In this document: piece by piece, positions 45,041 to 62,363 of the stretch
How positions within the stretch are numbered: the stretch's first letter is position 1
Layout: every line of letters starts with the position of its first letter
Assembly (NCBI RefSeq): GCF_003633775.1
Contig: NZ_RBIN01000005.1
Span: 248,001 to 312,000 of the forward strand
DNA length: 64,000 nucleotides
Direction of reading: 5' to 3'
Source: Kushneria sinocarnis
GTDB taxonomy: Bacteria; Pseudomonadota; Gammaproteobacteria; Pseudomonadales; Halomonadaceae
Notes under the pieces: generated by a model
What the model was told of the DNA's origin: nothing
Database searches by the model: none
What the model saw: the letters and a program-made list of their open reading frames with translations, nothing else
Position numbers and translations under genes: made by a program

Positions 45041-45283
45041 GCACTCTCCCTTGGCCGAGCTTGCAGGTACACCGCAGCGACTGCCGCCGAAGTCGCCCCC
45101 GACGGGCTCCATGGCGTCGCCTGCAGTGAGGATGCGAAGAATCAATCCCAGCCTGGCTGACCGGGCGTGGTCAGGCCAGCCGCCCTTCGCGCGGAGCGCA
45201 TATCGTGAAAGGCGGCTCGCCATGACGCGTCTGGTGGCATAAAGTAGTGCTCTTTCGTCACACCCTTGACCCAGAGTAGCCCG

Positions 45284-46678
45284 ATGGCCTCTTCCAAAGC
45301 CGCCCTTAGCGCGCCCTCGCCGGCCGATGAGCTGGATGATCGCACCCTGCTCGAGCGGGTACTGGCGATCCACGATCAGCGGCGGATTGCCGAGATACTC
45401 AACGAGGTCACCCCCGAACGCTGGTGCCGCGAGACCATCAACCGCTGGCTCCGCGGACGCGCCACGCCGCGGCTGTCACACGCCGAGCACCGCCGCCTGC
45501 AGCGTCTGCTGCCCACCCCGCCCACCACCACGCCGGCGTTTCGCTTCATCGACCTGTTCGCCGGTATCGGCGGTATCCGCCGCGGCTTCGATGCCATCGG
45601 CGGCGAGTGCGTGTTTACTTCCGAGCGCGATCGTTTTGCAGTGCGTACCTATCGCGCCAACCACTACTGCCACCCCGAGCGTCACCGCTTCAACCTCGAT
45701 ATCCGCGACATCACGCTCTCCGCCCGCGAGGAGATCGACGAAGACACCGCCTATCAGCACATCGATGATGCCATTCCCGACCACGAGGTGCTGCTGGCCG
45801 GCTTTCCCTGCCAGCCGTTCTCGCTGGCCGGGGTCTCGAAGAAGAACTCGCTGGGGCGCAAGCACGGCTTCGAATGCGATGCCCAGGGCACGCTGTTCTT
45901 CGATGTCGCCCGCATCATTGCCGCCAAGCGGCCGCCGGCGTTTGTGCTCGAGAACGTCAAGAATCTCAAGAGCCACGATGGCGGCAAGACCTTCCGGGTG
46001 ATCATCGAGGCGCTCGACGAGCTCGGCTATGAAGTGGCTGACGGCGAGGCGCCGAAGGGGCGCGATCCCAAGGTGATCGACGCCCGCCACTTCCTGCCCC
46101 AGCACCGCGAGCGCATCGTGCTGGTCGGCTTCCGGCGTGATCTGAACGTTCATCAGGGCTTCACCCTGCGCGATCTCGAACAGGTCATGCCCGAGCGGCG
46201 GCCGAGCTTCGGCGCGCTGCTCGATGCGCATGTCGATGAGCGCTACATCCTCTCGTCGAAGCTGTGGCGCTATCTCCATGACTACGCCCGCAAGCATCGC
46301 GAGAAGGGCAATGGCTTCGGCTTCGGCCTGACCGGCGCGCAGGACATCGCCCGCACCCTGTCGGCGCGCTATCACAAGGACGGCTCGGAGATCCTGGTCG
46401 ATCGCGGCCTCGACCCGGCGCAGGCATTCGACAGCCCGCACAATCAGGCCCACCGGCCGCGGCGGCTCACGCCCCGCGAGTGCGCCCGGCTGATGGGCTT
46501 CGACGGCCCCGGAGAGGCAAACTTCGTGATTCCGGTCTCCGATACCCAGGCCTATCGGCAGTTCGGCAACTCGGTGGCAGTGCCGGTATTCGAGGCCGTG
46601 GCGCGGCTGATGGCGCCGCGCCTGATGAGCGCGCTGGCCGGCCAGTCATGGCCACCGGCCGGTGGAATCGACAGCTGA
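45284..46678 (+). CDS. dcm: DNA (cytosine-5)-methyltransferase, Dcm-like
   Basis: The 464-residue C5-methylase has the ordered motifs I ([20 protein letters not shown]), IV ([15 protein letters not shown] with catalytic Cys), VI (VLENVKNL), VIII ([11 protein letters not shown]) and X ([12 protein letters not shown]). The N-terminal segment [20 protein letters not shown] is the extra helical domain found in E. coli Dcm, suggesting CCWGG specificity. No restriction enzyme or Vsr endonuclease is adjacent, so it is an orphan methylase. The ATG at 45284 is preferred over a TTG at 45266. It converges on the GntR gene. Confidence 0.88.
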
Positions 46679-46706: not shown

Positions 46707-47375
46707 CTATACCATGTCGCGCACCCGCTCCCAGGCATTGCCCAGATGCTCGCCGATGGCGGCAGTCAGGGCCTGGGCATCGCGGCGCTCCAGCGCCGTC
46801 ATCATGGCCTCGTGCTCGGCAATGGCGGCTGCCCAGAGTTCGGGGCCGTCATGGCCGATGAAGCGAATGCGCTTGAGCCGGGCCTGCAGCGAGGCGTGGG
46901 TCTGAATCAGCGGCTCGTTGTCGGACAGCGCCACGATGGCCGTGTGGATCTGCTGGTTGGTCTTGTAGTAGTCGAGCCGGTTGCCATCGCGATAGAAGGC
47001 CATCATGCGGTCGTGCAGCTCGCGCACCTCGGCAATGTCGTGCTCCCCGGCGCTCTCGCAGGCCAGCCGCGCTGCCAGCTCCTCCAGCGAGCGGATCAGC
47101 ACCAGCATGTCGTGCACGTCCTTCACCGAGAAATGCCTCACCCGGGCCCCGCGTTGCGGCACCAGCTCGACCAGCCCTTCGCTGGCCAGCGAACGCAGGG
47201 CTTCGCGCAGCGGTGTGCGCGATACACCCAGCGTCTCGCACAGCGGCGCTTCGAAGATACGCTCGCCCTGGGCCAGTTCGCCTTCGATGATCAGGTCACG
47301 CAACCGCCCGACGATGGCATCGTGAAGCGAATGACGCGAAATATGTGATGCCGCACCGTTGTGTTGCCGGGTCAT
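46707..47375 (-). CDS. GntR-family regulator (FadR/FCD subfamily)
   Basis: The 222-residue regulator has an N-terminal winged helix (LHDAIVGRLRDLIIEGELAQ, ETLGVSRTPLREALRSLASE, GLVELVPQRGARV) and an all-helical FCD ligand domain with metal-binding His/Asp residues (QIHTAIVALSDNEPL, AAIAEHEAMMTALERRDA). It is divergent from the pdxA-like gene and TctCBA transporter, and a 16-base perfect palindrome lies in the shared region, so it probably controls that operon in response to its substrate. Confidence 0.9.
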   Translation of the reverse strand: MTRQHNGAASHISRHSLHDAIVGRLRDLIIEGELAQGERIFEAPLCETLGVSRTPLREALRSLASEGLVELVPQRGARVRHFSVKDVHDMLVLIRSLEELAARLACESAGEHDIAEVRELHDRMMAFYRDGNRLDYYKTNQQIHTAIVALSDNEPLIQTHASLQARLKRIRFIGHDGPELWAAAIAEHEAMMTALERRDAQALTAAIGEHLGNAWERVRDMV

Positions 47376-47527
47376 GATGCTCCTCTGAATCCTGGCCGTG
47401 ACTGCCTACTGGGGCCGTCTCCACGCCATTGCACGCCGCTGCGCGGCCTGCTGCAAGTCCTGGCGTTTGTTCCTGCGTCTTCTGCCACCAAAGGCCAGGC
47501 CGGCAGGCGGACAAAGGCGACCAACGT

Positions 47528-47543
47528 ATAATGTATACATTAT
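47528..47543. promoter_or_regulatory. GntR operator palindrome
   Basis: ATAATGTATACATTAT is a perfect 16-base palindrome with the GTATAC centre common in FCD-type GntR operators. It overlaps a TATAAT sequence (47527-47532) and lies 65 bases before the pdxA-like start, so binding would block transcription. Confidence 0.78.
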
Positions 47544-47608
47544 GCATTCGGGCGCAGGCTGTTTTCCAGCGCAACCTTATTCCCCTGCTGCTTCGGAGAA
47601 CACCGTAC

Positions 47609-48652
47609 ATGTCCCAGCCCATGGCCCCCAACTCCCACCATGAACGCCCCCTGATCGCGCTGGCAATGGGCGATCCGGCCGGCATCAGTCCCGAGCTGAC
47701 CGCCCGGCTGGCTGCCGATCAAGCCGTCCACGACGCGACCCGAGTGGTCATCATCGGCGATCGTCGGATCTTCGATGAGGGCGCCCGCGCGGCCCGGCTC
47801 GCTCCCGAGCTGACACAGACCACCCTCTCGGCCCTGCGCAGCGGCAACGTCGAGAGCCCGGCCTTCATCGACCTCGGCCACCTGGCCTGCGAGGACATCG
47901 AGCGCGGCACTCCCTCGCTGGCCGGCGGTCGTTTCGCCTCCCGCAACTTCAATGAGGCACTGGCGCTGGCCGATGCGGGCCATGTCGAGGCGGTCTGTTT
48001 CACGCCCTTCAACAAGCAGGCGATGCGCTACGCCAATCCCGATTACGACGACGAGATCCGTTTCGTCGCGCGTGCCGTCGGCTTCGAGGGCAAGGCGCGG
48101 GAGTTCAATATCCTGGAAAACATCTGGAATGCCCGGGTGACCTCGCACATTCCACTCTCGCAGGTGGCCGCATCGCTGAGCGAGGCGAGCATCATCGAGG
48201 AGCTGGCGCTGACCCATCAGTGTCTGCAGCAGGCCGGTATCGACGCACCGCGCATCGCCGTTGCCGGGCTCAACCCCCACGCCGGCGACGGCGGCAACTT
48301 CGGCAGCGAGGAGGAAGAAATCATCGCCCCCGCCGTCGAGCGTGCCCGCGCTCGGGGCATCGAGGCGGTAGGCCCCTTCCCGGCCGATACCGTGTTTCTG
48401 CGCGCCACCCGCGAGGGGTATCACGCCGTGCTGACCATGTACCACGACCAGGGGCAGATCGCCATGAAACTGATGGGCTTCGACAGCGGCGTGACCATGC
48501 TGGGCGGCTTTCCCTTCCCGGTCTGTACTCCGGCCCACGGCACTGCCTACGACATCGCCGGGCGCGGCATTGCCGACATCGGCGCTTCGCGCCAGGCGCT
48601 GCTGCTGGCAGCCCGCATGAGCATGGCCGCCCGCCGCCAGACCACGGCCTGA
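47609..48652 (+). CDS. PdxA-like dehydrogenase of a TTT transporter operon
   Basis: The 347-residue NAD-dependent oxidative decarboxylase belongs to the PdxA fold (GDPAGISPELTARL). Metal ligands are kept as His180 (VTSHIPL), His224 (GLNPHAGDGG) and His279 (MYHDQGQ). However, residues that bind 4-phosphohydroxythreonine in E. coli PdxA differ: GHTE reads YDDE at 146-149, the Asn of GVNVT is Thr296, and the Arg of IRTS is Val305; only Lys287 remains. It is therefore unlikely to be the B6 biosynthesis enzyme. Relatives oxidise D-threonate/erythronate 4-phosphate or aromatic cis-diols (TphB). GGAGAA precedes the ATG at 47609. Confidence 0.85.
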   Translation: MSQPMAPNSHHERPLIALAMGDPAGISPELTARLAADQAVHDATRVVIIGDRRIFDEGARAARLAPELTQTTLSALRSGNVESPAFIDLGHLACEDIERGTPSLAGGRFASRNFNEALALADAGHVEAVCFTPFNKQAMRYANPDYDDEIRFVARAVGFEGKAREFNILENIWNARVTSHIPLSQVAASLSEASIIEELALTHQCLQQAGIDAPRIAVAGLNPHAGDGGNFGSEEEEIIAPAVERARARGIEAVGPFPADTVFLRATREGYHAVLTMYHDQGQIAMKLMGFDSGVTMLGGFPFPVCTPAHGTAYDIAGRGIADIGASRQALLLAARMSMAARRQTTA

Positions 48653-48696
48653 GCCCCTTCTACCGATTCCTCGGACATCCGATACCGGAGGCAACA

Positions 48697-49647
48697 ATGA
48701 AAACCCGCGTACTGACAGTCGGGCTGATCGCCCTGGGCATGACCGGCCTGGCCCAGGCCGCAGACTTTCCCGACGAGACTATCGAAGTGGTGACCCACTC
48801 CGGTGCCGGTGGCGGCACCGATCTGACCGCCCGCGCCATGATGCGCTCGGTGGAACCGGTGCTGGGCACCGACATGGTAGTGGTCAACAAGCCCGGTGGT
48901 GCCGGCGACGTGGCGCTGAACTATATCGACGAGCGCCCGGCGGATGGCTACACCCTGCTGACCTGGACCACCGGCCACGCGGTCCGCCAGGCGAAGGCCG
49001 GCGAGACCGAGGCGACCGGCCTGATCCCGATCGCACGCGCCACCAACGATCCCCAGGTGCTGATGACCCAGTGCGGCCAGTACGACGATGCCCGCGCCTT
49101 CATCGACGCCCAGAAGGAGGCGTCACTGCGCTACGGGGTCACCCACGTGGCCAACATCGACGACGTCTCGGCCTTCATGTTCGGCAAGGCGGCCGGCATC
49201 CAGCAGCCGGATATCGTCTCCTTCAAGGGCGGAGGCGACCTGCAGACCAACCTGATCGGCGGCAACATTGATGTCGCGGTGCTCAACTACGGCGAGGCGA
49301 CCTCGCAGATCAAGGCGGGCAAGATCTGCCCGATGGTGGTCATGGCCGACACGCCGCTGAGCGAGGCGCCGGATGTCGCTACCACCGATGAGCTGGGCAT
49401 CGATGCCGACTACGCCACGGTCCGCGGTTTCGCGGTGAAGGAAGGCACGCCGCCCGAGGTGGTCGAAAAGCTGCGCTCGGCCCTGATGGAAGGCATGCAG
49501 GATGAGCGGTTCGGCAAGTTCCTGAGCTCGACCATGGGGCTTGATCCGCAGGAGTCGGTCGCCGGCCACGAGACCTGGGGCGAGCAGATGGACAGCTCGG
49601 TCGCCAGGATGCATCAGGCCCTGACCGAACTCGGCTACATCCAGTAA
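48697..49647 (+). CDS. Tripartite tricarboxylate transporter substrate-binding protein (TctC/Bug)
   Basis: The 316-residue periplasmic binding protein starts with a Sec signal (MKTRVLTVGLIALGMTGLAQ, cleavage after AQA), then ETIEVVTHSGAGGGTDLTAR and VVVNKPGGAGDVALNYI, the Bug-family carboxylate-binding loops. GDLQTNLIGGNIDVAVLNYG is the second-domain signature. Such proteins bind small organic acids with high affinity and feed TctBA. It follows the pdxA-like gene by 44 bases with GGAGG before its ATG. The ligand is unknown. Confidence 0.92.
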   Translation: MKTRVLTVGLIALGMTGLAQAADFPDETIEVVTHSGAGGGTDLTARAMMRSVEPVLGTDMVVVNKPGGAGDVALNYIDERPADGYTLLTWTTGHAVRQAKAGETEATGLIPIARATNDPQVLMTQCGQYDDARAFIDAQKEASLRYGVTHVANIDDVSAFMFGKAAGIQQPDIVSFKGGGDLQTNLIGGNIDVAVLNYGEATSQIKAGKICPMVVMADTPLSEAPDVATTDELGIDADYATVRGFAVKEGTPPEVVEKLRSALMEGMQDERFGKFLSSTMGLDPQESVAGHETWGEQMDSSVARMHQALTELGYIQ

Positions 49648-49735
49648 AGCGTATCGGACGCCAACCACCGACGGCGGCCGGAGTACGGGCCGCCATCAGG
49701 CATCCGCCGGATGCCGGCAGAGCGAGGTTTCCCCC

Positions 49736-50209
49736 ATGCGAAACGCTCATACATTCCGCCTGGCAGTGCCCCTGCTGATCGCTGCGCTGCTGGCCGTGCT
49801 GGCTTTCATGCAGAGTTTCGGCTTCGACACCGTGCCCGCCATTCTGGCGAAGGGGCTGCAGCCCGCCACCTTCCCGCGACTGATTACCGGGCTGGTGCTG
49901 GTACTGGCAGTGATGGCCTTCATCCATGATCTGCGCCACCCACCCGAGTCGCCCACTGGACTGCCAAACGTCTTTTATCTGTCGGTACTGCTGCTGGCGA
50001 TCTTCGGTGCCCTGGTGGCCGCCGGTCTCTTTCTGCTGGCCCTGATGGCCGCCACCCTCGGTGCCTCGCTTTTGTGGGGCGAACGTCGCCCGCTGGTCCT
50101 GATCAGCCTGGCGCTTGCGCCGCTAATGGCCATCGTGCTGTTCGACATCGTCCTTGAAGTCAGGTTTCCGCGCAGTCCGCTGCTGAACCTTTATTATCGG
50201 TGGAGCTGA
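49736..50209 (+). CDS. Tripartite tricarboxylate transporter small permease (TctB)
   Basis: The 157-residue protein has four hydrophobic helices (LAVPLLIAALLAVLAFMQSF; RLITGLVLVLAVMAFIHDLR; FYLSVLLLAIFGALVAAGLF; LISLALAPLMAIVLFDIVLE), the TctB layout. It precedes the large permease by four bases. Sequence conservation in this family is low; the assignment rests on topology and position. Confidence 0.88.
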   Translation: MRNAHTFRLAVPLLIAALLAVLAFMQSFGFDTVPAILAKGLQPATFPRLITGLVLVLAVMAFIHDLRHPPESPTGLPNVFYLSVLLLAIFGALVAAGLFLLALMAATLGASLLWGERRPLVLISLALAPLMAIVLFDIVLEVRFPRSPLLNLYYRWS

Positions 50210-50213
50210 CACC

Positions 50214-51734
50214 ATGAGCGATCTTCTCCTTTCGGGTCTCTCCGCACTCAGCGATCCCGACCTGCTGCTGCTGATCGTGATCACCACCCTGGCCGGCACC
50301 GTGATCGGGGTCCTACCGGGACTCAGCGGCACCACCGGCGCCGCGCTGGCGCTGCCCTTCACGCTGACCATGGACCCCATCTCGGCAGTCGTGGTGCTGG
50401 CCACCATCTACGGCTCTTCCACCTTCGCCGGCTGCATCACGGCCATCCTGATCAACACGCCGGGCACCTCCGCTTCGGCCACCACCTGCCTGGACGGCTA
50501 CCCGCTGGCCCGAAATGGCGAGGCCGGCCGGGCGATCGGCGTGGCCACCCTCTCCTCCTGCTTCGGCGGCGTGATCAGCGTCATCTTCCTGCTGTTCGCC
50601 GCCCCGCTGCTGGCAGGGATCGCCTATCAGTTCGGCCCGCCGGAGTACTTTGCGCTGGCAGTCTTCGGCCTGTCGATGCTCGCCACCATCGGCGGCGGCT
50701 CGGCGGCCAAGAACCTGATTGCCGGCTGCTTTGGCGTGCTGCTCTCCACCGTGGGCGTCCACATGATGACCGGCGTCGAGCGCTATACCTTCGGCAGCGG
50801 AGCCCTATACGACGGGATCGGCTTCGTGCCGGTGATGATCGGCCTGTTCGGCATCGCCGAATTCCTGCGCCAGTCCACCGAGCTGGGGCTCAAGCGTAAC
50901 GTCATCGGCATGCGCGCCACCCGCCTGCCGTCGTGGGCGGACCTCCGGCGCATCCGCAATACCGTGCTGCGCTCCACCGGCATCGGCACCTTTGTCGGCG
51001 TGCTGCCGGCCGAGGGCGCCACCATCGCCTCGATGATCAGCTACAACGAGGCGCGGCGCCATTCGAGCAACAAGCAAAACTTCGGCAAGGGCGAAATCGA
51101 GGGGGTAGCCGCCTCGGAAGCGGCCAACAACTCGGCGGTCGGGGGCTCGCTGGTGCCGACCCTGGCACTCGGCATCCCCGGCAGCCCCACCGCCGCCATC
51201 ATTCTGGCCGGTCTGCTCGCCCAGGGCGTGCAGCCGGGGCCGACGCTTTTCAACGAGCAGGGCAATCTGCTCAGCGCACTCTTTGCCGCGCTGCTGGTCG
51301 CCAATTTCCTGTTCATCCTCGTGGGTCTGGGCGGCGCCAGGTTCTATGCCCGCATCACCCAGGTGCCGGTCCCCATCCTGTGGCCGCTGGTGTTCATGTT
51401 TTCGATCATCGGCGCCTACGCCATTCGCCAGTCGGTGTTCGATATCTACGTGACCCTGGCCTTCGGCCTGATCGGCTTTCTGATGCAGCGCTACGGCTTC
51501 TCGGTGGTTTCGCTGGCGATCGGTCTGGTACTGGGGGTCATGGTCGAGCAGCGGCTCGGCCAGAGCGTGGCGATGTTCAATGGCGACTGGTGGCTGATGT
51601 TCACCCGCCCCATTGCGCTGGCGTTCTTCATTCTGACCTTCCTGAGCCTGGCAGGACCGCTTCTCGCTGCCTGGCGGCACCGGCTGAAGCGCTCATCCCG
51701 CCACCACCGGCACGAGCGCGAGGCGAGCTCCTGA
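50214..51734 (+). CDS. Tripartite tricarboxylate transporter large permease (TctA)
   Basis: The 506-residue, about 12-helix permease carries both TctA glycine-rich signatures: TVIGVLPGLSGTTGAALALP near the start, with IYGSSTFAGCITAILINTPG, and in the second half GTFVGVLPAEGATIASMISY with GIPGSPTAAIILAGLLAQGV. It translocates the substrate delivered by TctC using an ion gradient. It is the last gene of the pdxA-tctCBA operon; a 10-bp hairpin follows. Confidence 0.95.
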   Translation: MSDLLLSGLSALSDPDLLLLIVITTLAGTVIGVLPGLSGTTGAALALPFTLTMDPISAVVVLATIYGSSTFAGCITAILINTPGTSASATTCLDGYPLARNGEAGRAIGVATLSSCFGGVISVIFLLFAAPLLAGIAYQFGPPEYFALAVFGLSMLATIGGGSAAKNLIAGCFGVLLSTVGVHMMTGVERYTFGSGALYDGIGFVPVMIGLFGIAEFLRQSTELGLKRNVIGMRATRLPSWADLRRIRNTVLRSTGIGTFVGVLPAEGATIASMISYNEARRHSSNKQNFGKGEIEGVAASEAANNSAVGGSLVPTLALGIPGSPTAAIILAGLLAQGVQPGPTLFNEQGNLLSALFAALLVANFLFILVGLGGARFYARITQVPVPILWPLVFMFSIIGAYAIRQSVFDIYVTLAFGLIGFLMQRYGFSVVSLAIGLVLGVMVEQRLGQSVAMFNGDWWLMFTRPIALAFFILTFLSLAGPLLAAWRHRLKRSSRHHRHEREASS

Positions 51735-54658: not shown

Positions 54659-57280
54659 TCAGCCCTCGCGCCGGCCGTCGACCAGCCGGTTGAGCCCCAG
54701 CGGGTTGGCTTCGCGCGTCGCCTCCGGACGCAGCGCATCCGGCAGGTTCTGATAGCAGACCGGGCGCAGGAAGCGATGGATCGCCGCGGTGCCTACCGAG
54801 GTGGTACGGCTGTCCGAAGTGCTGGGATAGGGACCGCCATGCACCATGGCATCGCAGACCTCGACCCCGGTCGGCCAGCCGTTGGCAAGAATGCGACCCG
54901 CCTTGCGCTCGAGGATCGACAGCAGCCGGCGCGCCTGATCAAGGTCGGCGTCCTCCATCTGCAGGCTAGCGGTCAGCTGCCCCTCCAGCTTCTCGGCGAC
55001 CTGCACCATTTCGGAGGTGTCGCGGCACTCGATGATCAGCGAGGTCGCGCCGAACACCTCCTCCTGCAGGCTCTGATCGGCCAGCAGCTCCTGCGCCGTG
55101 GTCAGAAAGAGCGCCGGCTGGCAGGTGTGCGGCCCGCCGCCCTGCGGGCCACGCGCAATCTCGCGCACCCCGGCATGTCCGGCCAGCCGGGACTGGCTCT
55201 GCCCGTAGGCCTCATGAATGCCCGGAGTCAGCATGGCCTGGGCGGTGGTCGCCTTCAGCGCCTCACCGGCGCTCTCCACGAAGCGATCCAGTGCCGCGCC
55301 CTGCTCGGCGATCAGCAGACCGGGATTGGTACAGAACTGGCCGGCACCGAGATTGAGCGAGTTGACGAACGCCCGGCCCAGCTCCTCGCCCTGCGTTTCC
55401 AGCGCCTGCGGCAGGGCAAACACCGGGTTGATGCTGCTCATCTCGGCGTAGAACGGAATCGGCTCGTCGCGCTGCTGGGCAATCTGCCACAGCGCATGAC
55501 CGCCCTTGCGCGAGCCGGTGAAGCCGGCGGCCTTGATGCGCGGATCGGCGACCAGCGCCTGACCGACTTCGAAGCCCGAGTCATACAGCAGCGAGAAGAC
55601 GCCCTCGGGCAGGCCGCACTTGCCGACGGCACGCTGCAGGGCCCGGCCGACCAGCTCACAGGTGCCGGGATGGGCCGGATGTGCCTTGACCACCACCGGA
55701 CAGCCGGCGGCCAGCGCCGATGCGGTATCCCCGCCGGCCACCGAGAAGGCGAGCGGGAAGTTGCTGGCGCCGAAGACCGCCACCGGGCCCAGCGCAATGT
55801 GGCGCTGACGATGGTCGAGCCGCGGCATCGGCGAACGCTCGGGCAGCGCCGGGTCGACCCGGACATCGAGCCACTCGCCGGCGCGCACCACCCGCGCAAA
55901 CATGCGCAGCTGGTTGCAGGTGCGCCCGCGCTCGCCGGTAATGCGGCCCTCGGCCAGTCCGGACTCGGCCACGGCGCGCTCGATCAGTTCATCACCGAGG
56001 GCCTCGATCTCATCGGCACAGCTCTCCAGGAAGCGGGCACGCTCCTCGAGCCCGGTTTCGCGATAGCGGTCGAATGCCTCCCAGGCCAGCCGACAGGCCC
56101 GATCGACATCCTCCCGGGTGCCGCCCGGCCAGTCCGGCTTGAGCTGCTCGCCGGTGGCGGGGTTGACCGCCGCAATGGATGCCTGGCTGCCACGAACGGC
56201 CTGCTGACCGATGAGTTGGGTACCTTCCAGTGCCATGACGCCTCCTGCCTGTGGCGCCCGCTCATGCGCATCACTGCCATGACGGGCACTCAGTGAGTGT
56301 ATGTGGAGCAAGGGCGGCTCCCGGACGAAGGCCAGCGGATTGCGCAGCATTCGCCCCAGAGCCGGCAGTTCGATTTCGAAACGATCGCCATCCCGGGTCT
56401 CGATGCCCTCGGCAAAGCTCAGCGTCGCCGTGCCGAAGAAATGCAGGTTGAGGTCACCGGGGCGGCGGAACAGCACGTACTTGAAATGGTGGTACTCGAG
56501 ATTGGCGAGGCTGTGCGACATGTTGGCCTCGCCGGTCGCGAACGGCCGCTCCCACAGGGTGCGGCCGTCACGCACGATCCGGCTGGTACCGGTGAGACTG
56601 GCAGGCAGCTCGCCGATGAAGAGCTCGGGACCGAAACTGCAGTGGCGCAGCTTGGAGTGCGCCAGCCAGAGCTGGTTGTGGCGCTCGGTCACGTGATCGG
56701 AGCACTCGTTGCCGATGGCGTAGCCGATCCGCCAGGGTCGGCCCCGGTCATCATTGAGATAGACGCCGACCAGCTCGGGCTCCTCGCCGGCATCCCGGGC
56801 GAAGCTCGGCACCGGAATGGGCTGCTCGGGCGCGATGACGCAGCGGCTATCGCCCTTGTAGAACCACTCCGGTTGCACGCCGACGGCACCCGGCTCCGGC
56901 TTGCCGCCCTCGATGCCCATCCGGAACATGCGCATCGAATCGGTGAGATTCGCCTCATCGGCCGCCGCGCCGCCGTGCATCGCCGCACGGGTATCGACGC
57001 TGCCCGGATGGGTCAGACCGGTGCCGCTCACCAGGCAGTGGGCCGGATCGGGATGAGTGATCGGCGGCAGCAGTTCACCGGCTGCCACCAGGGTGTCGTA
57101 GTCAAGCGTCTCGTCGCCGAGCAGCCCCTCGATCACGCTCGCCAGCGACTGGCCGGTTGCAATCGCCTGACGGGCCAGCGCCAGGGTGCCGCCCGCAAGT
57201 TCGATCGGGCGGACCTGCGCTGCGCTTTCCACCAGTGCCGCCTTCGGGCCGTGAACGCTCTGGTACTGGATCAGTCTCAT
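54659..57280 (-). CDS. Fused AraD1/GguC-family protein and 2,5-dioxovalerate (2-ketoglutarate semialdehyde) dehydrogenase
   Basis: One 873-residue frame joins two enzymes usually encoded by adjacent genes. Residues 1 to about 332 are an AraD1/GguC-type fumarylacetoacetate-hydrolase-fold protein (MRLIQYQSVHGPKAALVESA; LVSGTGLTHPGSVDTRAAMH; GVQPEWFYKGD), probably a 2-keto-3-deoxy-sugar-acid dehydratase. Residues 349-873 form a complete 525-residue aldehyde dehydrogenase of the KGSADH class: VAVFGASNFPLAFSVAGGDT, FTGSRKGGHALW, the catalytic Glu in YAEMSSINPVF and Cys in GAGQFCTNPG. It would finish sugar-acid breakdown to 2-oxoglutarate. The joint contains AGGAGG and ATG in correct register, so the dehydrogenase may also be translated alone. 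Confidence 0.88.
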   Translation of the reverse strand: MRLIQYQSVHGPKAALVESAAQVRPIELAGGTLALARQAIATGQSLASVIEGLLGDETLDYDTLVAAGELLPPITHPDPAHCLVSGTGLTHPGSVDTRAAMHGGAAADEANLTDSMRMFRMGIEGGKPEPGAVGVQPEWFYKGDSRCVIAPEQPIPVPSFARDAGEEPELVGVYLNDDRGRPWRIGYAIGNECSDHVTERHNQLWLAHSKLRHCSFGPELFIGELPASLTGTSRIVRDGRTLWERPFATGEANMSHSLANLEYHHFKYVLFRRPGDLNLHFFGTATLSFAEGIETRDGDRFEIELPALGRMLRNPLAFVREPPLLHIHSLSARHGSDAHERAPQAGGVMALEGTQLIGQQAVRGSQASIAAVNPATGEQLKPDWPGGTREDVDRACRLAWEAFDRYRETGLEERARFLESCADEIEALGDELIERAVAESGLAEGRITGERGRTCNQLRMFARVVRAGEWLDVRVDPALPERSPMPRLDHRQRHIALGPVAVFGASNFPLAFSVAGGDTASALAAGCPVVVKAHPAHPGTCELVGRALQRAVGKCGLPEGVFSLLYDSGFEVGQALVADPRIKAAGFTGSRKGGHALWQIAQQRDEPIPFYAEMSSINPVFALPQALETQGEELGRAFVNSLNLGAGQFCTNPGLLIAEQGAALDRFVESAGEALKATTAQAMLTPGIHEAYGQSQSRLAGHAGVREIARGPQGGGPHTCQPALFLTTAQELLADQSLQEEVFGATSLIIECRDTSEMVQVAEKLEGQLTASLQMEDADLDQARRLLSILERKAGRILANGWPTGVEVCDAMVHGGPYPSTSDSRTTSVGTAAIHRFLRPVCYQNLPDALRPEATREANPLGLNRLVDGRREG
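56234..56251 (-). promoter_or_regulatory. Internal ribosome binding site and start codon for the dehydrogenase half
   Basis: On the minus strand AGGAGG (56242-56247) is followed by CGTC and ATG (56236-56234). Starting there gives MALEGTQLIGQQAVRGSQAS and 525 residues, the normal length of stand-alone KGSADH enzymes. Confidence 0.7.
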
Positions 57281-57584
57281 GCACTTCTCCGTGATGCTCG
57301 CTCCCGGCAGCGGCCGTCACCATGCGCGGCCATCACCGGGGTCGCGGCAGCGGTCAGTTGTCATACAACATCGCCGACAGCTCTCCAGCATAGTAGAACT
57401 CTGCCAGCTGGCGGCGATTGAAAGGTCGAAAATCGACCATGGTCGAAGTCCCGGTCGCCGCCGTCGTGCGGTGTGACCCGCGCCGGCCCCTGGCTGACCG
57501 CAACGAAAATGCTCCGGCCGGCAGTACCGGGAGTTCGGTACCGCACGGCCGGAGCAGCAGCGTCGCCGGGCTCGGCGTGGCGGG
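57281..57584. other. 304-base gap between gntP-like and AraD1 genes
   Basis: Both flanking genes are on the minus strand. The gap holds the gntP terminator at 57506-57555 and must then carry a separate promoter for the AraD1-dehydrogenase gene. No open reading frame was recognised. Confidence 0.5.
57506..57555 (-). terminator. Rho-independent terminator of the gntP-like gene
   Basis: A large hairpin: outer arms GCTCCGGCCG (57511-57520) and CGGCCGGAGC (57546-57555), inner arms GTACCG and CGGTAC. On the minus strand it is followed by ATTTTCGTT. It lies 30 bases past the permease stop. Confidence 0.8.
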
Positions 57585-58988
57585 TCAGGTGATCAGCAGG
57601 AAGAGCCCCCAGACCAGCCCGAAGGCCATCAGCGAAATGCCGGTCGAGACCACCGTCCAGGTCTTGAGCATGGTCTGGGTACTGACCCCCAGAAAACGCC
57701 CCACCAGCCAGAAGCCGGAGTCGTTGACGTGCGAGTAGCCGATGGCGCCGGCCACGATCGCCACCGTGATGCAGGCCGCCGGGAAGCCGGCCAGCTCGGG
57801 CGCAGCCAGTACCGCCGGTGCCATGATGCTGGCCGCCGTGGTGCCGGCCACCGTGGCCGAGCCCTGGGCCACGCGGATGACCGCGGCAATCACGTAGCCG
57901 GCCACGATCAGCGGCATGCCCAGCGACTGCAGGCTGCCGGCCAGCGCCTCGCCGATGCCGCTGGCCTTGAGCACGCCACCGAACATGCCGCCGGCCCCGG
58001 TGATCAGGATGATGCTGCAGACCGGTGCCACCGCCTGTTCGACGATATCGTTGATGGCATCCATGGCCTCCTCGCGCTGGCGTCGCAGCACCAGCAGCCA
58101 CATCGCCACACAGGTGCTGATCAGCAGCGCAATCGGGGTTTCGCCGATCAGCAGCAGCGTGTTCAGCAGGGTATTGCCCTCGGGCAGGGTGCCGCTGGAG
58201 ATCAGCGTCGAGATGCCGGTGTTCATGAAGATCAGCGCCAGCGGCATCAGCAGCACCAGCATCACCACCCCGAAGGGCGGCAGCTCGCTGGTCTCGTCGG
58301 CCTGGCTGTCGCCCATCATGTCGGGCACCGGCTGGAACGGCATGCGCCCGGCGCGGGCCACCGAGAGCCGATAGCCCATGACATACCAGGTCGGAATGGC
58401 GGCCAGCAGTGCCACCAGCAGCACCTGACCCACATCGGCATGCAGGAACACGGCCGCCGCCACCGGGCCGGGATGGGGCGGCATCAGCGCATGCATCACC
58501 AGAAAGGCACCGGCAGCAGGCAGCCCGTAGAGCAGCAGCGAGCCCTTCAGCTCGCGGGCAATCGAGTAGATGATCGGCAGCATCACCACGAAGGCGGCAT
58601 CGAGAAAGATCGGAAAGCCGAACAGCAGGCAGGCAATCGACAGCCCCAGCGGCGCCCGCTCACGGCCGAACAGGCGGATCAGCGTATCGGCCAGCACCCG
58701 GGCACCACCGGAGACCGCCACGATGCGGCCGAGCACGGCCCCGAAGCCGATCAGCAGCGCGACATTGCCCAGCGTATCGCCGAAGCCCGACAGCAGGGTC
58801 GGCATCAGGTCGGAGACGCCGATACCGGTGGCCAGCGCCGTGGCAATACTGACGATGACCAGCGAGAAAAAGGGATGCAGCCGGATCCGGATGATCAACA
58901 GCAGCAGTACCGCGATGGCAACGGCCGCGACGGCCAGCAGGCCGAGCGTCGACATTCCGGAAGCGGCTGCGTCCTGAGCCCCTTGCAT
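57585..58988 (-). CDS. Gluconate:H+ symporter family permease (GntP)
   Basis: The 467-residue inner membrane permease has about 12-14 helices and GntP signatures: GFGDTLGNVALLIGFGAVLG, FGFPIFLDAAFVVMLPIIYS, MHALMPPHPGPVAAA, and IGYSHVNDSGFWLVGRFLGV near the C-terminus. Family members import gluconate or other sugar acids with protons. GGAGG lies seven bases before the ATG at 58988. Its neighbours (isomerase, hydroxyacid dehydrogenase, AraD1-KGSADH) suggest a hexonate or pentonate rather than gluconate itself. Confidence 0.93.
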   Translation of the reverse strand: MQGAQDAAASGMSTLGLLAVAAVAIAVLLLLIIRIRLHPFFSLVIVSIATALATGIGVSDLMPTLLSGFGDTLGNVALLIGFGAVLGRIVAVSGGARVLADTLIRLFGRERAPLGLSIACLLFGFPIFLDAAFVVMLPIIYSIARELKGSLLLYGLPAAGAFLVMHALMPPHPGPVAAAVFLHADVGQVLLVALLAAIPTWYVMGYRLSVARAGRMPFQPVPDMMGDSQADETSELPPFGVVMLVLLMPLALIFMNTGISTLISSGTLPEGNTLLNTLLLIGETPIALLISTCVAMWLLVLRRQREEAMDAINDIVEQAVAPVCSIILITGAGGMFGGVLKASGIGEALAGSLQSLGMPLIVAGYVIAAVIRVAQGSATVAGTTAASIMAPAVLAAPELAGFPAACITVAIVAGAIGYSHVNDSGFWLVGRFLGVSTQTMLKTWTVVSTGISLMAFGLVWGLFLLIT

Positions 58989-59215
58989 AATCAGCCTCCA
59001 TGGAGGGCCGCCACCGCAGCCACGGTGGCTCTACCAGTAATGAAATCGGCCAGGCGCCTTTTGACCACCGCCCGGGCGATGGCCACGAAGGCGCCTGATG
59101 AATGACACGCCTCGCCCTGGCGAAAAACGCACCCTCCACGCAGCCGCCGGTGAGGGCGCAGGCGGACAGGCCTCGGCCGGGGCCGGCGCCGCAGTGCCGG
59201 TCCCGGATCGGGGCT

Positions 59216-60166
59216 TCAGGAGAGCGGCGGCGGGCCGAGCTCCTCGAGCAGCTTCTGCAGCTTCACGTAGGCCCGGTTGCGATAGGCAATCAGCTCCGGG
59301 ATACGCTCGGCCGGCACATCGGTGAAGCCACCACCGCTCTTGGTGCCCAGCTTGCCCTGATCGATCAGGTCACTGAGCACCTGTGGTGTGGCAAAGCGCT
59401 CGGGGAAGTCCTTCTGCAGCGACTGATAGCAGAAGTTGTAGACATCCAGCCCGGCCATGTCGGCGATCGCGAAGGGGCCGAAGAACGGCAGGCGGAAGCC
59501 GAAGGTGGTGCGCACCAGGGTATCGATGTCCTCGGCGCTGGCCACCCCTTCCTCGAGCAGCTGGGTCGCCTCGTGGAACAGCGCATACTGCAGGCGGTTG
59601 AGCACGAAACCGGTCACGTCACTGACGGTGGCGGTCTCCTTGCCGGTCTCGTGCACGATGGCACAGGCGGCATCCACCACGTCGGAGCGGGTCCCGGCGT
59701 GCGGGATGATCTCCACCCCCGGCACGAAGGGCGACGGGTTGGAGAAGTGCACGCCCAGAAAGCGGCCCGGCTCGGTCACGGCCTCGGCGAGCGAGGCGAT
59801 CGAGATGGTGGACGTGTTCGAGCCGATGATGGCATCCGTCGGTGCGGCCGAGCAGATCCGGCGCAGGGTCTCGTGCTTGATGTCGAGCTTTTCGGGAACC
59901 GCTTCCTCGATGAAGTCGGTGCCCTCGACCGCCGCCTCGATGGATTCGGCCGCGGTGACATTGCGCTCGATGCGCTCGACCGCATCGGCCGGAAACAGCT
60001 CATCGGCGACGTACTGGCGGGCCTCTTCGATCAGCCGCTGGCGGTTCTTCTCGGTGACCTCGAACGAAACGTCGCTGATGCGCACCTCGGCACCGGCCAG
60101 CGCCATCACCTGAGCAATGCCGCCACCCATGTAGCCGGAACCGACGATAGCTACCTTGCGTGTCAT
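59216..60166 (-). CDS. 3-hydroxyacyl-CoA dehydrogenase-fold hydroxyacid dehydrogenase
   Basis: The 316-residue NAD enzyme has the Rossmann start VAIVGSGYMGGGIAQVMALA, the catalytic Ser/Asn region IIGSNTSTISIASLAEA with the His of GVHFSNPSPFVPGVEI, and a C-terminal helical domain (DVTGFVLNRLQYALFHEATQ; GKLGTKSGGGF). Size and context fit the lambda-crystallin/L-gulonate 3-dehydrogenase-like group better than fatty acid oxidation, because sugar-acid genes surround it and no thiolase or enoyl-CoA hydratase is nearby. It follows the isomerase gene by 49 bases. Confidence 0.85.
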   Translation of the reverse strand: MTRKVAIVGSGYMGGGIAQVMALAGAEVRISDVSFEVTEKNRQRLIEEARQYVADELFPADAVERIERNVTAAESIEAAVEGTDFIEEAVPEKLDIKHETLRRICSAAPTDAIIGSNTSTISIASLAEAVTEPGRFLGVHFSNPSPFVPGVEIIPHAGTRSDVVDAACAIVHETGKETATVSDVTGFVLNRLQYALFHEATQLLEEGVASAEDIDTLVRTTFGFRLPFFGPFAIADMAGLDVYNFCYQSLQKDFPERFATPQVLSDLIDQGKLGTKSGGGFTDVPAERIPELIAYRNRAYVKLQKLLEELGPPPLS

Positions 60167-60215
60167 GAAGTGATCTCCATGGTGTTGAAAGCGAAAAAGT
60201 GTTGAAACCGCCGAC

Positions 60216-61193
60216 TCAGCGCTTGCCGCCCTGGCGGACCCGGCTCTGACCGAGCTCGTAGTCGGTGCTGCGCGGCAGCACCTGTTCGCGCAGGTAACGC
60301 TGGTTGGTGTTCGAAACGCTCAGACCGTCACCGCCGTAGTGTTCGGTGCAGATGACGCCCTGGAAGCCGTGGGCCAGCGCGATTTCGAACGCCTTGCGAT
60401 AGCTGATCAGACCGAACTCCAGCGGTGCCGGCATGGCGATGTACTGATCGCGCGCCACGTCCTCGTCACGGCTGTAGTTCTTGACGTGCCAGTAGTTGGC
60501 GTACGGCAGGGTCTTTTCCAGCATCTGCTGCCAGGGCTCGATCGGGCGATGCAGGCGGATCAGGTTGCCGATATCGGGATTGAGGCCGACGTTCGGCAGG
60601 CCGATGTCCTCGACCAGTGCCACGGCGGAATCGGCGGTACCCAGATAGGTGTCCTCGTACATCTCCAGCGACATCAGCAGGCCCAGCTCCTCGGCGCGCC
60701 GGCCCAGCTCCTGCAGCCGCTTCACCGCCAGATTCCAGGTATCGCGATCGCCGGTCGGGTCCTTGTGGCCCTCGACGGTCCAGAACCACAGCTGCTTCTG
60801 CTGCTCGGGCGTCAGTGCCTGGTGCAGGCCGACGGACACCACCTCGCAGCCCAGCTCGGCGGCGGCTTCCAGCGTACGGTGGCTGTAGGCCAGGTTGTCC
60901 TCGCCGTGCTCGGTATCGATCACGCTGCGCCGGATTGCCGACAGCGAGGGCATGCCGAGGCCGGCGTCATGGGCGGTGCGCTTGAACTCATCCAGCCGCG
61001 CTGCCGACAGGTCACCGGGCTTCACCCAGCCATCGGTGAGATCGACATCGCGAAAGCCGGCCTCGCGGACTTCGGTGAAGACGCCATGCCAGTGGGCAGC
61101 ATCGGCATCGTTGACATGCCGACCCCGGGAATCGGTGGCGGAAAACTGCAGCAGGGCGGCCGCAATCGGCCATTCTTCAGCGCTATAGGGCAT
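60216..61193 (-). CDS. Sugar phosphate isomerase/epimerase family protein (xylose isomerase-like barrel)
   Basis: The 325-residue TIM barrel shows the AP2Ec-family metal-ligand strands: LLMSLEMYEDTYLGT (Glu), VGLNPDIGNLIRLH (Asp), YWHVKNYSRD (His) and VICTEHYGGDG (Glu). It should isomerise or epimerise a keto sugar or sugar acid. It is the first gene of the sugar-acid cluster, with AAGGAG before the ATG at 61193, and is divergent from the LysR regulator. The substrate is not identifiable from sequence. Confidence 0.88.
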   Translation of the reverse strand: MPYSAEEWPIAAALLQFSATDSRGRHVNDADAAHWHGVFTEVREAGFRDVDLTDGWVKPGDLSAARLDEFKRTAHDAGLGMPSLSAIRRSVIDTEHGEDNLAYSHRTLEAAAELGCEVVSVGLHQALTPEQQKQLWFWTVEGHKDPTGDRDTWNLAVKRLQELGRRAEELGLLMSLEMYEDTYLGTADSAVALVEDIGLPNVGLNPDIGNLIRLHRPIEPWQQMLEKTLPYANYWHVKNYSRDEDVARDQYIAMPAPLEFGLISYRKAFEIALAHGFQGVICTEHYGGDGLSVSNTNQRYLREQVLPRSTDYELGQSRVRQGGKR

Positions 61194-61415: not shown

Positions 61416-62363
61416 ATGGGCACTCTGCCGAAGGACTGGTTTTCCCGCGTTCGACTAAAGTTACGCCACCTCGAGCTGTTCGTGGCGCTTGATGAACAGC
61501 GCAACCTGCACCGCGCCGCTGCCCAGCTGGAGATCAGTCAGCCGGCGGCCTCGAAGCTGCTGGGCGAACTGGAGAGCCGGCTGGGGACGCCGCTGTTCGA
61601 ACGGCACAGCCGCGGGCTGACCCCCAACTGGTATGGCGAGCTGATGGTACGACGGGCGCGCTCGGTGCTGGACGAGCTCGGCCAGGCCGGTGAGGAGTTC
61701 AACGCCCTGCAGAGCGGCCATACCGGGCTGGTGCGCGTGGGCACGGTGATGGCGGCGGCCGTGCCGCTACTGACCCGCGCCGTCGAGAGGCTGCACAGCG
61801 AGCGGCCGGGGCTGCATGTCAGCATCAACGTCGAGGTGAGCCGGCAGCTGGTCCAGGGCCTGCTCGATGGCCGGTACGACTTCGTGCTCTCGCGCATTCC
61901 GGCCGGCTTTTCCGGCGAGCACTTCGTGTTCGAGGAGATCGGCGAGGAAGAAATCTGCTTCGTCTGCAGCGTTCGCCATCCGCTGGCCCGGTCAACCGCG
62001 CCGGATCTGGCGACTCTCAGCCAGTGGCCGTGGGCCCTGCAGCCGCGCGGCAGCCTGATGCGCCAGCGGGTCGAGGAGCTGATGCACCGGGAGCAGCTCG
62101 AGCTGCCCTGCTGGGTGGTGGATACGCCGGATCCGATGGTGTCGCTGGCGCTGGTCGACAACTCGGAGTTCATCACCGTCGCCACCCGCGATGTCACCGA
62201 ACGGCTGTTCGATCCGGCACGCTTTCATATCCTGCCCTACCCGCAGCGTCTCGGCATTCAGCCCTACGGCCTGGTCAGCCTGCGCCATCAGCGCCTCTCG
62301 CCGGGCACCGGGGCGCTGATGTCCACCCTGCGCGAGCTGATGCGCGAGCCGCCTGCTCCCTGA
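61416..62363 (+). CDS. LysR-family regulator of the sugar-acid cluster
   Basis: The 315-residue regulator has an N-terminal winged helix (LRHLELFVALDEQRNLHRAA, AQLEISQPAASKLLGELESR) and a C-terminal periplasmic-binding-like effector domain (VRVGTVMAAAVPLLTRAVER onward). The sequence type resembles GbpR, which controls sugar-binding-protein and GguC genes in agrobacteria, fitting the AraD1/GguC gene nearby. It is divergent from the isomerase gene and probably controls that operon through the palindrome at 61374-61393. Confidence 0.9.
   Translation: MGTLPKDWFSRVRLKLRHLELFVALDEQRNLHRAAAQLEISQPAASKLLGELESRLGTPLFERHSRGLTPNWYGELMVRRARSVLDELGQAGEEFNALQSGHTGLVRVGTVMAAAVPLLTRAVERLHSERPGLHVSINVEVSRQLVQGLLDGRYDFVLSRIPAGFSGEHFVFEEIGEEEICFVCSVRHPLARSTAPDLATLSQWPWALQPRGSLMRQRVEELMHREQLELPCWVVDTPDPMVSLALVDNSEFITVATRDVTERLFDPARFHILPYPQRLGIQPYGLVSLRHQRLSPGTGALMSTLRELMREPPAP

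Follow-up and report, generated by a model that had tools for sequence, protein, structure and literature searches.

Relatives of PdxA and tetronate pathways

Enzymes of the PdxA family have their active site at the dimer interface, and PdxA, PdxA2, and TphB decarboxylate. PdxA2 is said, in work attributed to Zhang et al. 2016, to be a D-threonate 4-phosphate dehydrogenase that operates with a DUF1537 kinase. TphB (terephthalate 1,2-cis-dihydrodiol dehydrogenase, PDB 4aty) is a PdxA relative with an unphosphorylated substrate, which we take to be linked to TTT. In the Otn/Ltn tetronate routes (LtnD, OtnI, OtnK, and OtnC), oxidation by another dehydrogenase family precedes the kinase, and decarboxylation follows. 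LerK presumably belongs to the DHA-kinase family. According to excerpts of PMC10733421, LerK, LerI, and DerI are erythrulose enzymes, LerI being a TpiA homolog.

The operon described here lies in a window (the whole stretch of DNA analyzed) of 64,000 nucleotides from Kushneria sinocarnis. Its PdxA-like protein resembles PdxA2 in belonging to the PdxA family, in keeping the metal ligands and the Lys/Asp residues, and in being encoded by a catabolic gene that adjoins an acid importer. Unlike PdxA2, it has D-E-I, T, and V in place of G-H-T, N, and R and falls in a separate clade; DUF1537 is not an obligatory partner, and the kinase would act after the dehydrogenase, not before it. The same positions are changed in TphB, although to other residues (Y, P, A, and F), and the substrate of the window protein, like that of TphB, is presumably unphosphorylated.

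Organization and regulation of the operon

The original prediction described a GntR-PdxA-like-TctCBA operon. All of these genes are present, but the gene encoding the GntR/FCD-family transcriptional regulator (46707..47375, minus strand; Pfam PF00392 and PF07729) lies just outside the predicted operon start at 47376 and is divergent, which places it outside the pdxA-tctCBA transcript. On the plus strand, the PdxA-like ORF extends from an ATG at 47609, a start codon that we chose, to 48652 (347 aa) and is followed by the genes for the TctC periplasmic solute-binding protein (48697..49647; PF03401), the TctB small membrane subunit (49736..50209; PF07331, 32.8 versus a cut-off of 29.1), and the TctA large membrane subunit (50214..51734; PF01970, 490.5 bits). 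The coordinates of neighboring genes differ, in order, by 45, 89, and 5. With TctC, TctB, and TctA all found together by Pfam, the importer is a tripartite tricarboxylate transporter.

A GntR protein with at least 40% identity was encoded within 8 kb of the subgroup-A PdxA gene (see below) at 91 of 98 loci. A 16-bp perfect palindrome, ATAATGTATACATTAT, at 47528..47543 is probably the operator to which, we infer, GntR binds. Each of the 18 Halomonadaceae relatives that were fetched has an upstream match to 14–16 of the 16 bases, and matches at 14 or more bases occurred in 3 of 505 random control windows, which may include the site itself. No second copy with two or fewer mismatches was found across the genome of the window organism, and a search for a GntR site common to the kinase and isomerase genes discussed below found none.

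Loss of the phosphate-site residues and phylogenetic placement

The PdxA-like protein clearly belongs to the PdxA family (PF04166, 288.6 bits versus a cut-off of 27). As predicted, His180, His224, His279, and Lys287 are kept, aligning in MAFFT with H166, H211, H266, and K274 of E. coli PdxA; D260 is also kept. The predicted changes of Asn283 to Thr (T296) and of Arg292 to Val (V305) also appeared in the alignment, whereas the Asp-Asp pair proposed as the counterpart of His136-Thr137 was one place off. Asp147-Asp148 align with Thr134-Gly135 in both phmmer and MAFFT, and G135-H136-T137 correspond to D148-E149-I150. Residues H136, T137, N283, and R292, which we take to be the substrate-site list of true PdxA and PdxA2, are therefore represented by E149, I150, T296, and V305. 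A further change is that of Asp296 to Ala309.

These features are shared by the 122 aligned clade rows, a few of which represent one genome fetched twice. The metal ligands H166, H211, and H266 are all kept in 122/122 rows, and Asp at 135 occurs together with Thr at 283 in every row (99/99 in subgroup A). Glu occupies position 136 in 121 rows and Asp in the remaining one, and no row has Arg at 292; G-H-T, N, and R are present in all six reference PdxA/PdxA2 rows. The changes are not due to chance, and the alignment indicates that the phosphate-site residues are lost throughout the clade.

In NCBIfam scans, the window protein scored 257.7 bits against TIGR00557 (the true PdxA equivalog), under the cut-off of 290.35, whereas the true PdxA and the DUF1537-adjacent copy of the same genome scored 393.7 and 370.2, respectively. 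Against NF002891 (PdxA2; cut-off 583), it scored 195.4 bits, and the DUF1537-adjacent copy likewise missed the cut-off, at 341.5. In phylogenetic trees, the window protein was placed in a third catabolic clade of the PdxA family, as a member of subgroup A. AU tests rejected the grouping of subgroup A with true PdxA or PdxA2 (p = 0.00013 to 0.0012; for PdxA2, 0.0012 and 0.00024), so the protein falls outside both, in line with the original prediction.

Gene neighborhoods across bacteria

The gntR|pdxA-tctCBA unit recurs in Halomonadaceae, Rhizobiaceae, and others. In tblastn counts at 98 loci of subgroup-A PdxA relatives, an isomerase family was encoded at 35 and a DHA-kinase-family gene (DhaK) at 28. 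In Rhizobiaceae, the isomerase follows tctA, in the order gntR|pdxA-tctCBA-isomerase-DHA kinase family, and the gene system is present in S. meliloti. Paracoccus sp. TOH carries isomerase-DhaK-pdxA-tctCBA-DRL-OtnK-aldolase in a single run. In an Accumulibacter MAG, DhaK, a TPI-like gene, and DerI (barely above the NCBIfam cut-off, at 241.9 versus 240) adjoin the PdxA-like operon. At 30 of the 98 loci, no gene with any of the catabolic labels searched for accompanied the regulator and transporter.

The window itself encodes a member of the isomerase family, a sugar isomerase/epimerase-like TIM barrel (60216..61193, minus strand; 55% identity to the S. meliloti gene), which heads another operon that includes another dehydrogenase. 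It is a PF01261 protein of a family related to structure 5tnv, and its E, D, H, and E motifs, which for this fold we take to bind metal, are conserved in 6/6 aligned sequences. No NCBIfam model reached its cut-off for this family. The isomerase is not LerI, which PMC10733421, in the excerpts available, gives as a TpiA homolog. In the NCBIfam scan in which the RpiB-like protein of the genome scored 176.6 with the DerI model (cut-off 240) and higher as RpiB, no LerI model matched.

Of 201 Halomonadaceae genomes surveyed, 19 contain the PdxA-like gene and 182 do not. The isomerase family was found in 19/19 of the former and 2/182 of the latter, and the DHA-family kinase in 19/19 (one match being partial, at a contig edge) and 31/182, respectively, both comparisons being uncorrected for kinship. 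In eight Salinicola-group genomes, the PdxA-like gene and the isomerase form one operon; in K. sinocarnis, both the isomerase and the kinase are encoded outside pdxA-tctCBA, in other operons. The isomerase at 60216–61193 is probably a pathway partner of the PdxA-like enzyme. The kinase adjoins RpiB-like, TPI-like, and tkt genes in 18/18 examined Halomonadaceae with the PdxA-like gene. DhaK with this setting is also found in Halomonadaceae genomes without the PdxA-like gene, showing that it has wider roles.

No DUF1537 gene occurs in the window, as originally noted; the two of this genome are on contigs C1 and C8. With an OtnK seed and the whole fetched stretch, DUF1537 was detected at 7 of the 98 related loci, six of them with an OtnC-type gene (an earlier count with the own-genome seed within 8 kb gave 5/98; the larger is used here), so DUF1537 is not a consistent partner of this subgroup. 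Two typed DUF1537 proteins from such loci were 3-oxo-tetronate kinases, above the cut-off, and these kinases act following an oxidation. Near the PdxA-like gene of Phyllobacterium sophorae, 3-oxo-tetronate kinase, 2-oxo-tetronate isomerase, L-threonate dehydrogenase, and 3-oxo-tetronate 4-phosphate decarboxylase were all identified above NCBIfam cut-offs. A few loci thus resemble the Otn/Ltn routes in their neighboring gene set; in the window operon, no LtnD, OtnI, OtnK, or OtnC gene was found.

Proposed pathway and alternatives

The original prediction left the imported hydroxyacid with no assigned pathway, and the recurring neighbors now point to a concrete candidate, from aldonate to ketose to kinase. 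The window protein is predicted to be a non-phosphorylated aldonate 3-dehydrogenase (decarboxylating). We see about an even chance that the locus is a GntR-controlled unit for the uptake and oxidation of a plain sugar acid, most likely a C5 aldonate, with the ketose phosphorylated last. TctCBA would import the unphosphorylated sugar acid, and the PdxA-like enzyme, with NAD and a metal ion, would oxidize its C3 hydroxyl and release CO2, like PdxA. The acidic D148-E149 and T296/V305 take the places of the residues that hold the phosphate (H-T, N, and R). Oxidation would yield a ketose for a DHA-kinase-family enzyme to phosphorylate, so that the dehydrogenase would act before the kinase, opposite to the order in the DUF1537-PdxA2 route. 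A C5 aldonate yielding erythrulose would be the likeliest acid; the TIM-barrel isomerase may epimerize or isomerize the ketose, and the kinase and its RpiB-like and TPI-like neighbors may carry it to erythrose 4-phosphate.

Such a route would be made of known kinds of parts, and the neighbors in other bacteria suggest oxidation before any kinase. The probable downstream part, in which RpiB-like and TPI-like genes accompany the DHA-kinase-family gene, may correspond to the LerK-LerI-DerI route, which, as far as the excerpts of PMC10733421 go, is known to start from erythritol or threitol, unlike the proposed sugar-acid entry. The original prediction involved no kinase, which holds only for the local operon; with a DHA-kinase-family gene at 28/98 loci and in the genomes of 19/19 Halomonadaceae that carry the PdxA-like gene, later phosphorylation of the ketose is the better reading. 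An unphosphorylated substrate is favored by the TphB-type proteins, whose own substrate is unphosphorylated and which are altered at the same positions. The six loci with OtnK and OtnC point to C4 acids. More tentatively, this may be a new PdxA branch that converts free pentonates directly to erythrulose by oxidative decarboxylation, which would open a route from aldonates to erythrose 4-phosphate with the kinase last, and the linked DXR-like (DRL) proteins may be tetronate dehydrogenases feeding OtnK/OtnC.

A C4 substrate for this chemistry (a tetronate, for example one of the stereoisomers of threonate or erythronate), giving dihydroxyacetone and then DHAP via DHA kinase, is possible but doubtful. 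Dihydroxyacetone is the namesake substrate of the kinase family, and the P. sophorae tetronate enzyme set and the OtnK homologs at 7/98 loci (six with OtnC) are consistent with C4 acids. However, dihydroxyacetone has no stereocenter and should make an epimerase superfluous, whereas all 19 Halomonadaceae with the PdxA-like gene have the isomerase, and the RpiB-like and TPI-like neighbors of the kinase better fit a tetrulose phosphate. It is rather improbable that the enzyme only dehydrogenates, leaving a 3-keto acid to be taken over by the TIM-barrel isomerase or by OtnK and OtnC. OtnK and OtnC are indeed neighbors at some loci, and the isomerase, heading its operon with another dehydrogenase, may act on a keto acid, but the PdxA relatives that share the metal site decarboxylate, and the substrates of DHA-family kinases are ketoses.

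The likeness to TphB held in part. The shared changed positions and an AU test that did not reject a deeper union of subgroups A and B with TphB (p = 0.41) would suit a TphB-like enzyme that dehydrogenates a cis-diol acid, either aromatic or cyclic, but subgroup A joined with TphB alone was rejected (p = 0.0005), and the fetched annotated subgroup-A neighborhoods list no ring-hydroxylating dioxygenase, making this very unlikely. Such a dioxygenase is listed beside two dioxygenase-linked PdxA relatives. An ordinary PdxA or PdxA2 that tolerates the changes and acts on a 4-phosphorylated substrate is scarcely credible: the best PDB sequence matches include the PdxA2 structures 2hi1 and 6e85, but the phosphate site is changed clade-wide, the AU tests argue against it, and a true PdxA and a PdxA-family gene adjacent to DUF1537 are encoded at other places in the genome.

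Implications and annotation

If the aldonate pathway proposed above is correct, it would add a third substrate class to the well-known vitamin-B6 enzyme family, provide a testable function for the importer and for the isomerase family, and link DXR-like oxidoreductases to tetronate genes. S. meliloti, which carries the system, permits direct testing. DXR was not adopted as the identity of the DRL proteins; excerpts of PMC3847144 describe DLO1 and DLO2 as uncharacterized clades and report that a DXR mutant was not complemented by any of four proteins from them. An apionate route was set aside, with only a weak OiaK match in the NCBIfam scans run. Our literature search, which included excerpts of PMC7954711 (which cites Zhang et al. 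2016), PMC6225978, and PMC12928451, showed no publication on the third catabolic PdxA clade among the papers listed. The fetched plasmid records, where annotated, name subgroup-A genes 4-hydroxythreonine-4-phosphate dehydrogenase; because the residues contradict this activity, many database names for such genes are probably wrong.

PdxA-like operon and its place in the PdxA family

The operon lies on contig 5 of the 3.5-Mb genome and consists of a PdxA-family gene (ATG at 47609, end at 48652) and tctC, tctB, and tctA (48697–51734). A GntR/FCD regulator gene on the minus strand (46707–47375) is adjoined by a C5-cytosine DNA methylase gene (45266–46678, plus strand). Three PdxA-family genes are present in this genome. 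With 393.7 bits, the true PdxA exceeded the equivalog cut-off of 290.35; a copy immediately downstream of a DUF1537 (OtnK-type kinase family) gene also exceeded that cut-off (370.2 bits) and was under that of D-threonate 4-phosphate dehydrogenase (341.5 versus 583); and the window copy, with 257.7 bits, was under the equivalog cut-off.

In two phylogenetic trees, one of 70 rows (including about one-third of the subgroup A rows) and one of 30 selected rows, subgroup A, which includes the window protein, its sister subgroup B, and a few outliers formed a clade split from PdxA, PdxA2, and TphB, with support of 100/99 and 100/100. AU tests of groups named only after the first tree had been seen rejected the union of A with PdxA2 (p = 0.0012), with a group made up of 4jqp and the DUF1537-adjacent copies from the own genus (p = 0.00024), with true PdxA (p = 0.00013), and with TphB alone (p = 0.00054). 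The union of A, B, and TphB, the last with long branches, was not rejected (p = 0.41). The separation from PdxA and PdxA2 in the original prediction is thus borne out, and the clade is a putative third catabolic branch within the PdxA family, one that has no name in the libraries searched.

The window protein keeps the metal ligands and the equivalents of E. coli D247 and K274, and its changed positions are those that bind the substrate in PdxA. In an alignment of 130 rows, a few of which represent one genome under two locus numbers, all 122 clade rows had Asp at position 135 and Thr at 283, position 136 was Glu in 121 and Asp in one, and none had Arg at 292. The six PdxA/PdxA2 reference rows had G-H-T, N, and R, and the TphB-like row, to which 4aty aligned likewise, had Y, P, A, and F; the letters of a second dioxygenase-linked protein (L168) differed from these. 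The predicted loss of phosphosubstrate residues therefore extends across the clade. The residues matching H136-T137 are indeed altered, but their alignment was off by one place, and MAFFT and phmmer agree on E149-I150. Because two acidic residues stand where the phosphate pocket was, a phosphorylated substrate seems disfavored, and the non-phosphorylated substrate proposed originally appears to be right.

Distribution and gene neighborhoods

Subgroup A was found in 19 of the 201 Halomonadaceae genomes, the own genome included, with 67–100% identity; subgroup B was separate from it (41–46% identity). The locus of the same-genus genome G036 was 81% identical, and the Salinicola loci were 73–74% identical. 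Further loci were the best 80 of 587 confirmed, so the neighbor counts, made on a non-redundant set of 98 A loci, several of them truncated at contig ends, describe close relatives only. GntR genes occurred in 91 loci, TTT (tctCBA importer) genes in 90, TRAP genes in four, and a gene for a DXR-like protein (DRL) in 30. The isomerase (a TIM-barrel sugar isomerase/epimerase-like family) occurred in 27, plus eight with a 53%-identical Salinicola form. In 30 loci, the regulator and transporter were the only labels found of those sought. The absence of a kinase in the original prediction is an incomplete picture, given that DUF1537 occurred in seven of the 98 loci with an OtnK seed (five with the first seed) and a DHA-kinase-family gene (DhaK) in 28. 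Six of the seven DUF1537 loci contained OtnC, five had OtnK, OtnI, and OtnC, and the seventh, in Mesorhizobium waimense (L093), also had DhaK. DRL and DhaK occurred together in none of the 98 loci, and both were found on two further Paracoccus plasmids.

The order gntR|pdxA-tctCBA-isomerase-DHA kinase family was seen in S. meliloti pSymB (where TctB is unannotated in the record), Shinella, and Pararhizobium, and pdxA-tctCBA-DRL-isomerase in Salinicola. In Kushneria pakistanensis (L038/L078), the same regulator and PdxA-like gene are followed by TRAP transporter genes, in the place that tctCBA occupies in the other fetched members of the genus.

Co-occurrence and regulation

At E up to 1e-60, the isomerase family was present in 21 of the 201 Halomonadaceae: all 19 with the PdxA-like gene, G097, and G017 (a 44% form). 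The co-occurrence gave a Fisher p of 1e-24, uncorrected for phylogeny. Both genes lie within one operon in the eight genomes of genus g4; by match coordinates they are ~9 kb apart in seven same-genus genomes, and they are far apart in G090 and the two g16 genomes. The window isomerase (60216–61193) belongs to a probable second sugar-acid operon (54659–61193, minus strand) that also encodes a 3-hydroxyacyl-CoA-dehydrogenase-like protein, a GntP-type permease, and an 873-aa fusion of AraD1/GguC-family and aldehyde dehydrogenase domains (54659–57280, minus strand; AraD1/GguC 489 bits versus a cut-off of 340), beside a LysR gene (61416–62363, plus strand). G090 (L184) also has segments homologous to both fusion parts, and their order is the same.

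DhaK, at E up to 1e-100, was present in 50 of the 201 genomes, including all 19 with the PdxA-like gene (partial match in G130; p = 1.5e-13), and accompanied RpiB-like, TPI-like, and transketolase (tkt) genes in all 18 examined (G130 excluded). Because the same set also occurs in PdxA-like-free genomes (G097, G095, and G043 of five examined; tkt was absent from the stretch viewed in G017 and a TPI match from G088), it is wider than the proposed pathway. Of the two TIM proteins in the own genome, the kinase-adjacent one scores lower (197 versus 296 bits). In an Accumulibacter MAG, DhaK, a TPI-like gene, and DerI (241.9, just over the cut-off of 240) adjoin the PdxA-like operon; PMC10733421 describes LerK, LerI, and DerI as erythrulose enzymes.

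A 16-bp palindrome at 47528–47543 was matched at 14–16 of 16 bases upstream in all 18 fetched Halomonadaceae relatives, versus 3 of 505 random control windows reaching at least 14. A variant common to many Rhizobiaceae matches at 11 bases, a level reached by 18 of 505 controls, so its support is the repeated sequence, not the score. The genome contains one copy at up to two mismatches; control by the GntR protein is therefore probably confined to this operon, and this site would not co-regulate the operons of the kinase and the isomerase, an argument against one tight pathway in the window organism.

Proposed pathway

These observations are consistent with a plausible kinase-last route for this PdxA branch, in which an unphosphorylated aldonate would be imported and oxidized at C3 with loss of CO2, and the resulting ketose would then be isomerized and phosphorylated. 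A ketose product with a stereocenter would explain the isomerase and so favors a C5 acid. We give this reading, with C5 as its likeliest form, about an even chance. The same route with a C4 acid fits the tetronate gene sets of some loci but accounts less well for the isomerase, and we consider it rather unlikely. Such sets include OtnK, OtnI, LtnD, and OtnC near the operon in Phyllobacterium sophorae, all above their own NCBIfam cut-offs, OtnK of Brucella endophytica, also above its cut-off, and OtnK and OtnC homologues in three Microvirga loci (tblastn matches, not NCBIfam-typed). As oxidation of dehydroascorbate and diketogulonate yields threonate and 2-oxo-threo-pentonate, according to PMC6225978, acids of both lengths are available in plant environments; any connection with the operon is speculative.

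DRL loci and subgroup B

Paracoccus sp. TOH carries a single run, isomerase-DhaK-pdxA-tctCBA-DRL-OtnK-aldolase, whose PdxA-like protein shares 51% identity with that of the window (residues D-E-I, T, and I). Palleronia (L211) has DRL-tctCBA-OtnK-aldolase, with the PdxA gene absent from the locus listing, and on a Comamonadaceae plasmid DRL adjoins an OtnK-type kinase and an aldolase. These gene sets suggest that DRL acts as dehydrogenase in a separate tetronate branch and that PdxA-isomerase-DhaK makes up a second one, with the importer common to both.

DRL genes recurred in the vicinity of genes for an OtnK-type kinase and an OtnC-type aldolase (L103, L138, L147, L153, L211, L212, and L214), a functional lead for proteins that plasmid records label FlgA, SAF-domain, or homoserine dehydrogenase. 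At ~493 kb on contig C1 of the own genome (L165:6596–12143), a GntR gene is divergent from a DRL gene followed by tctCBA, the Palleronia layout, in which OtnK and aldolase come next. Many Halomonadaceae loci of subgroup B (L054–L072), which has the same D-E and T signature as A, contain TRAP genes, an enolase-superfamily (MR_MLE) protein, and AraD1.
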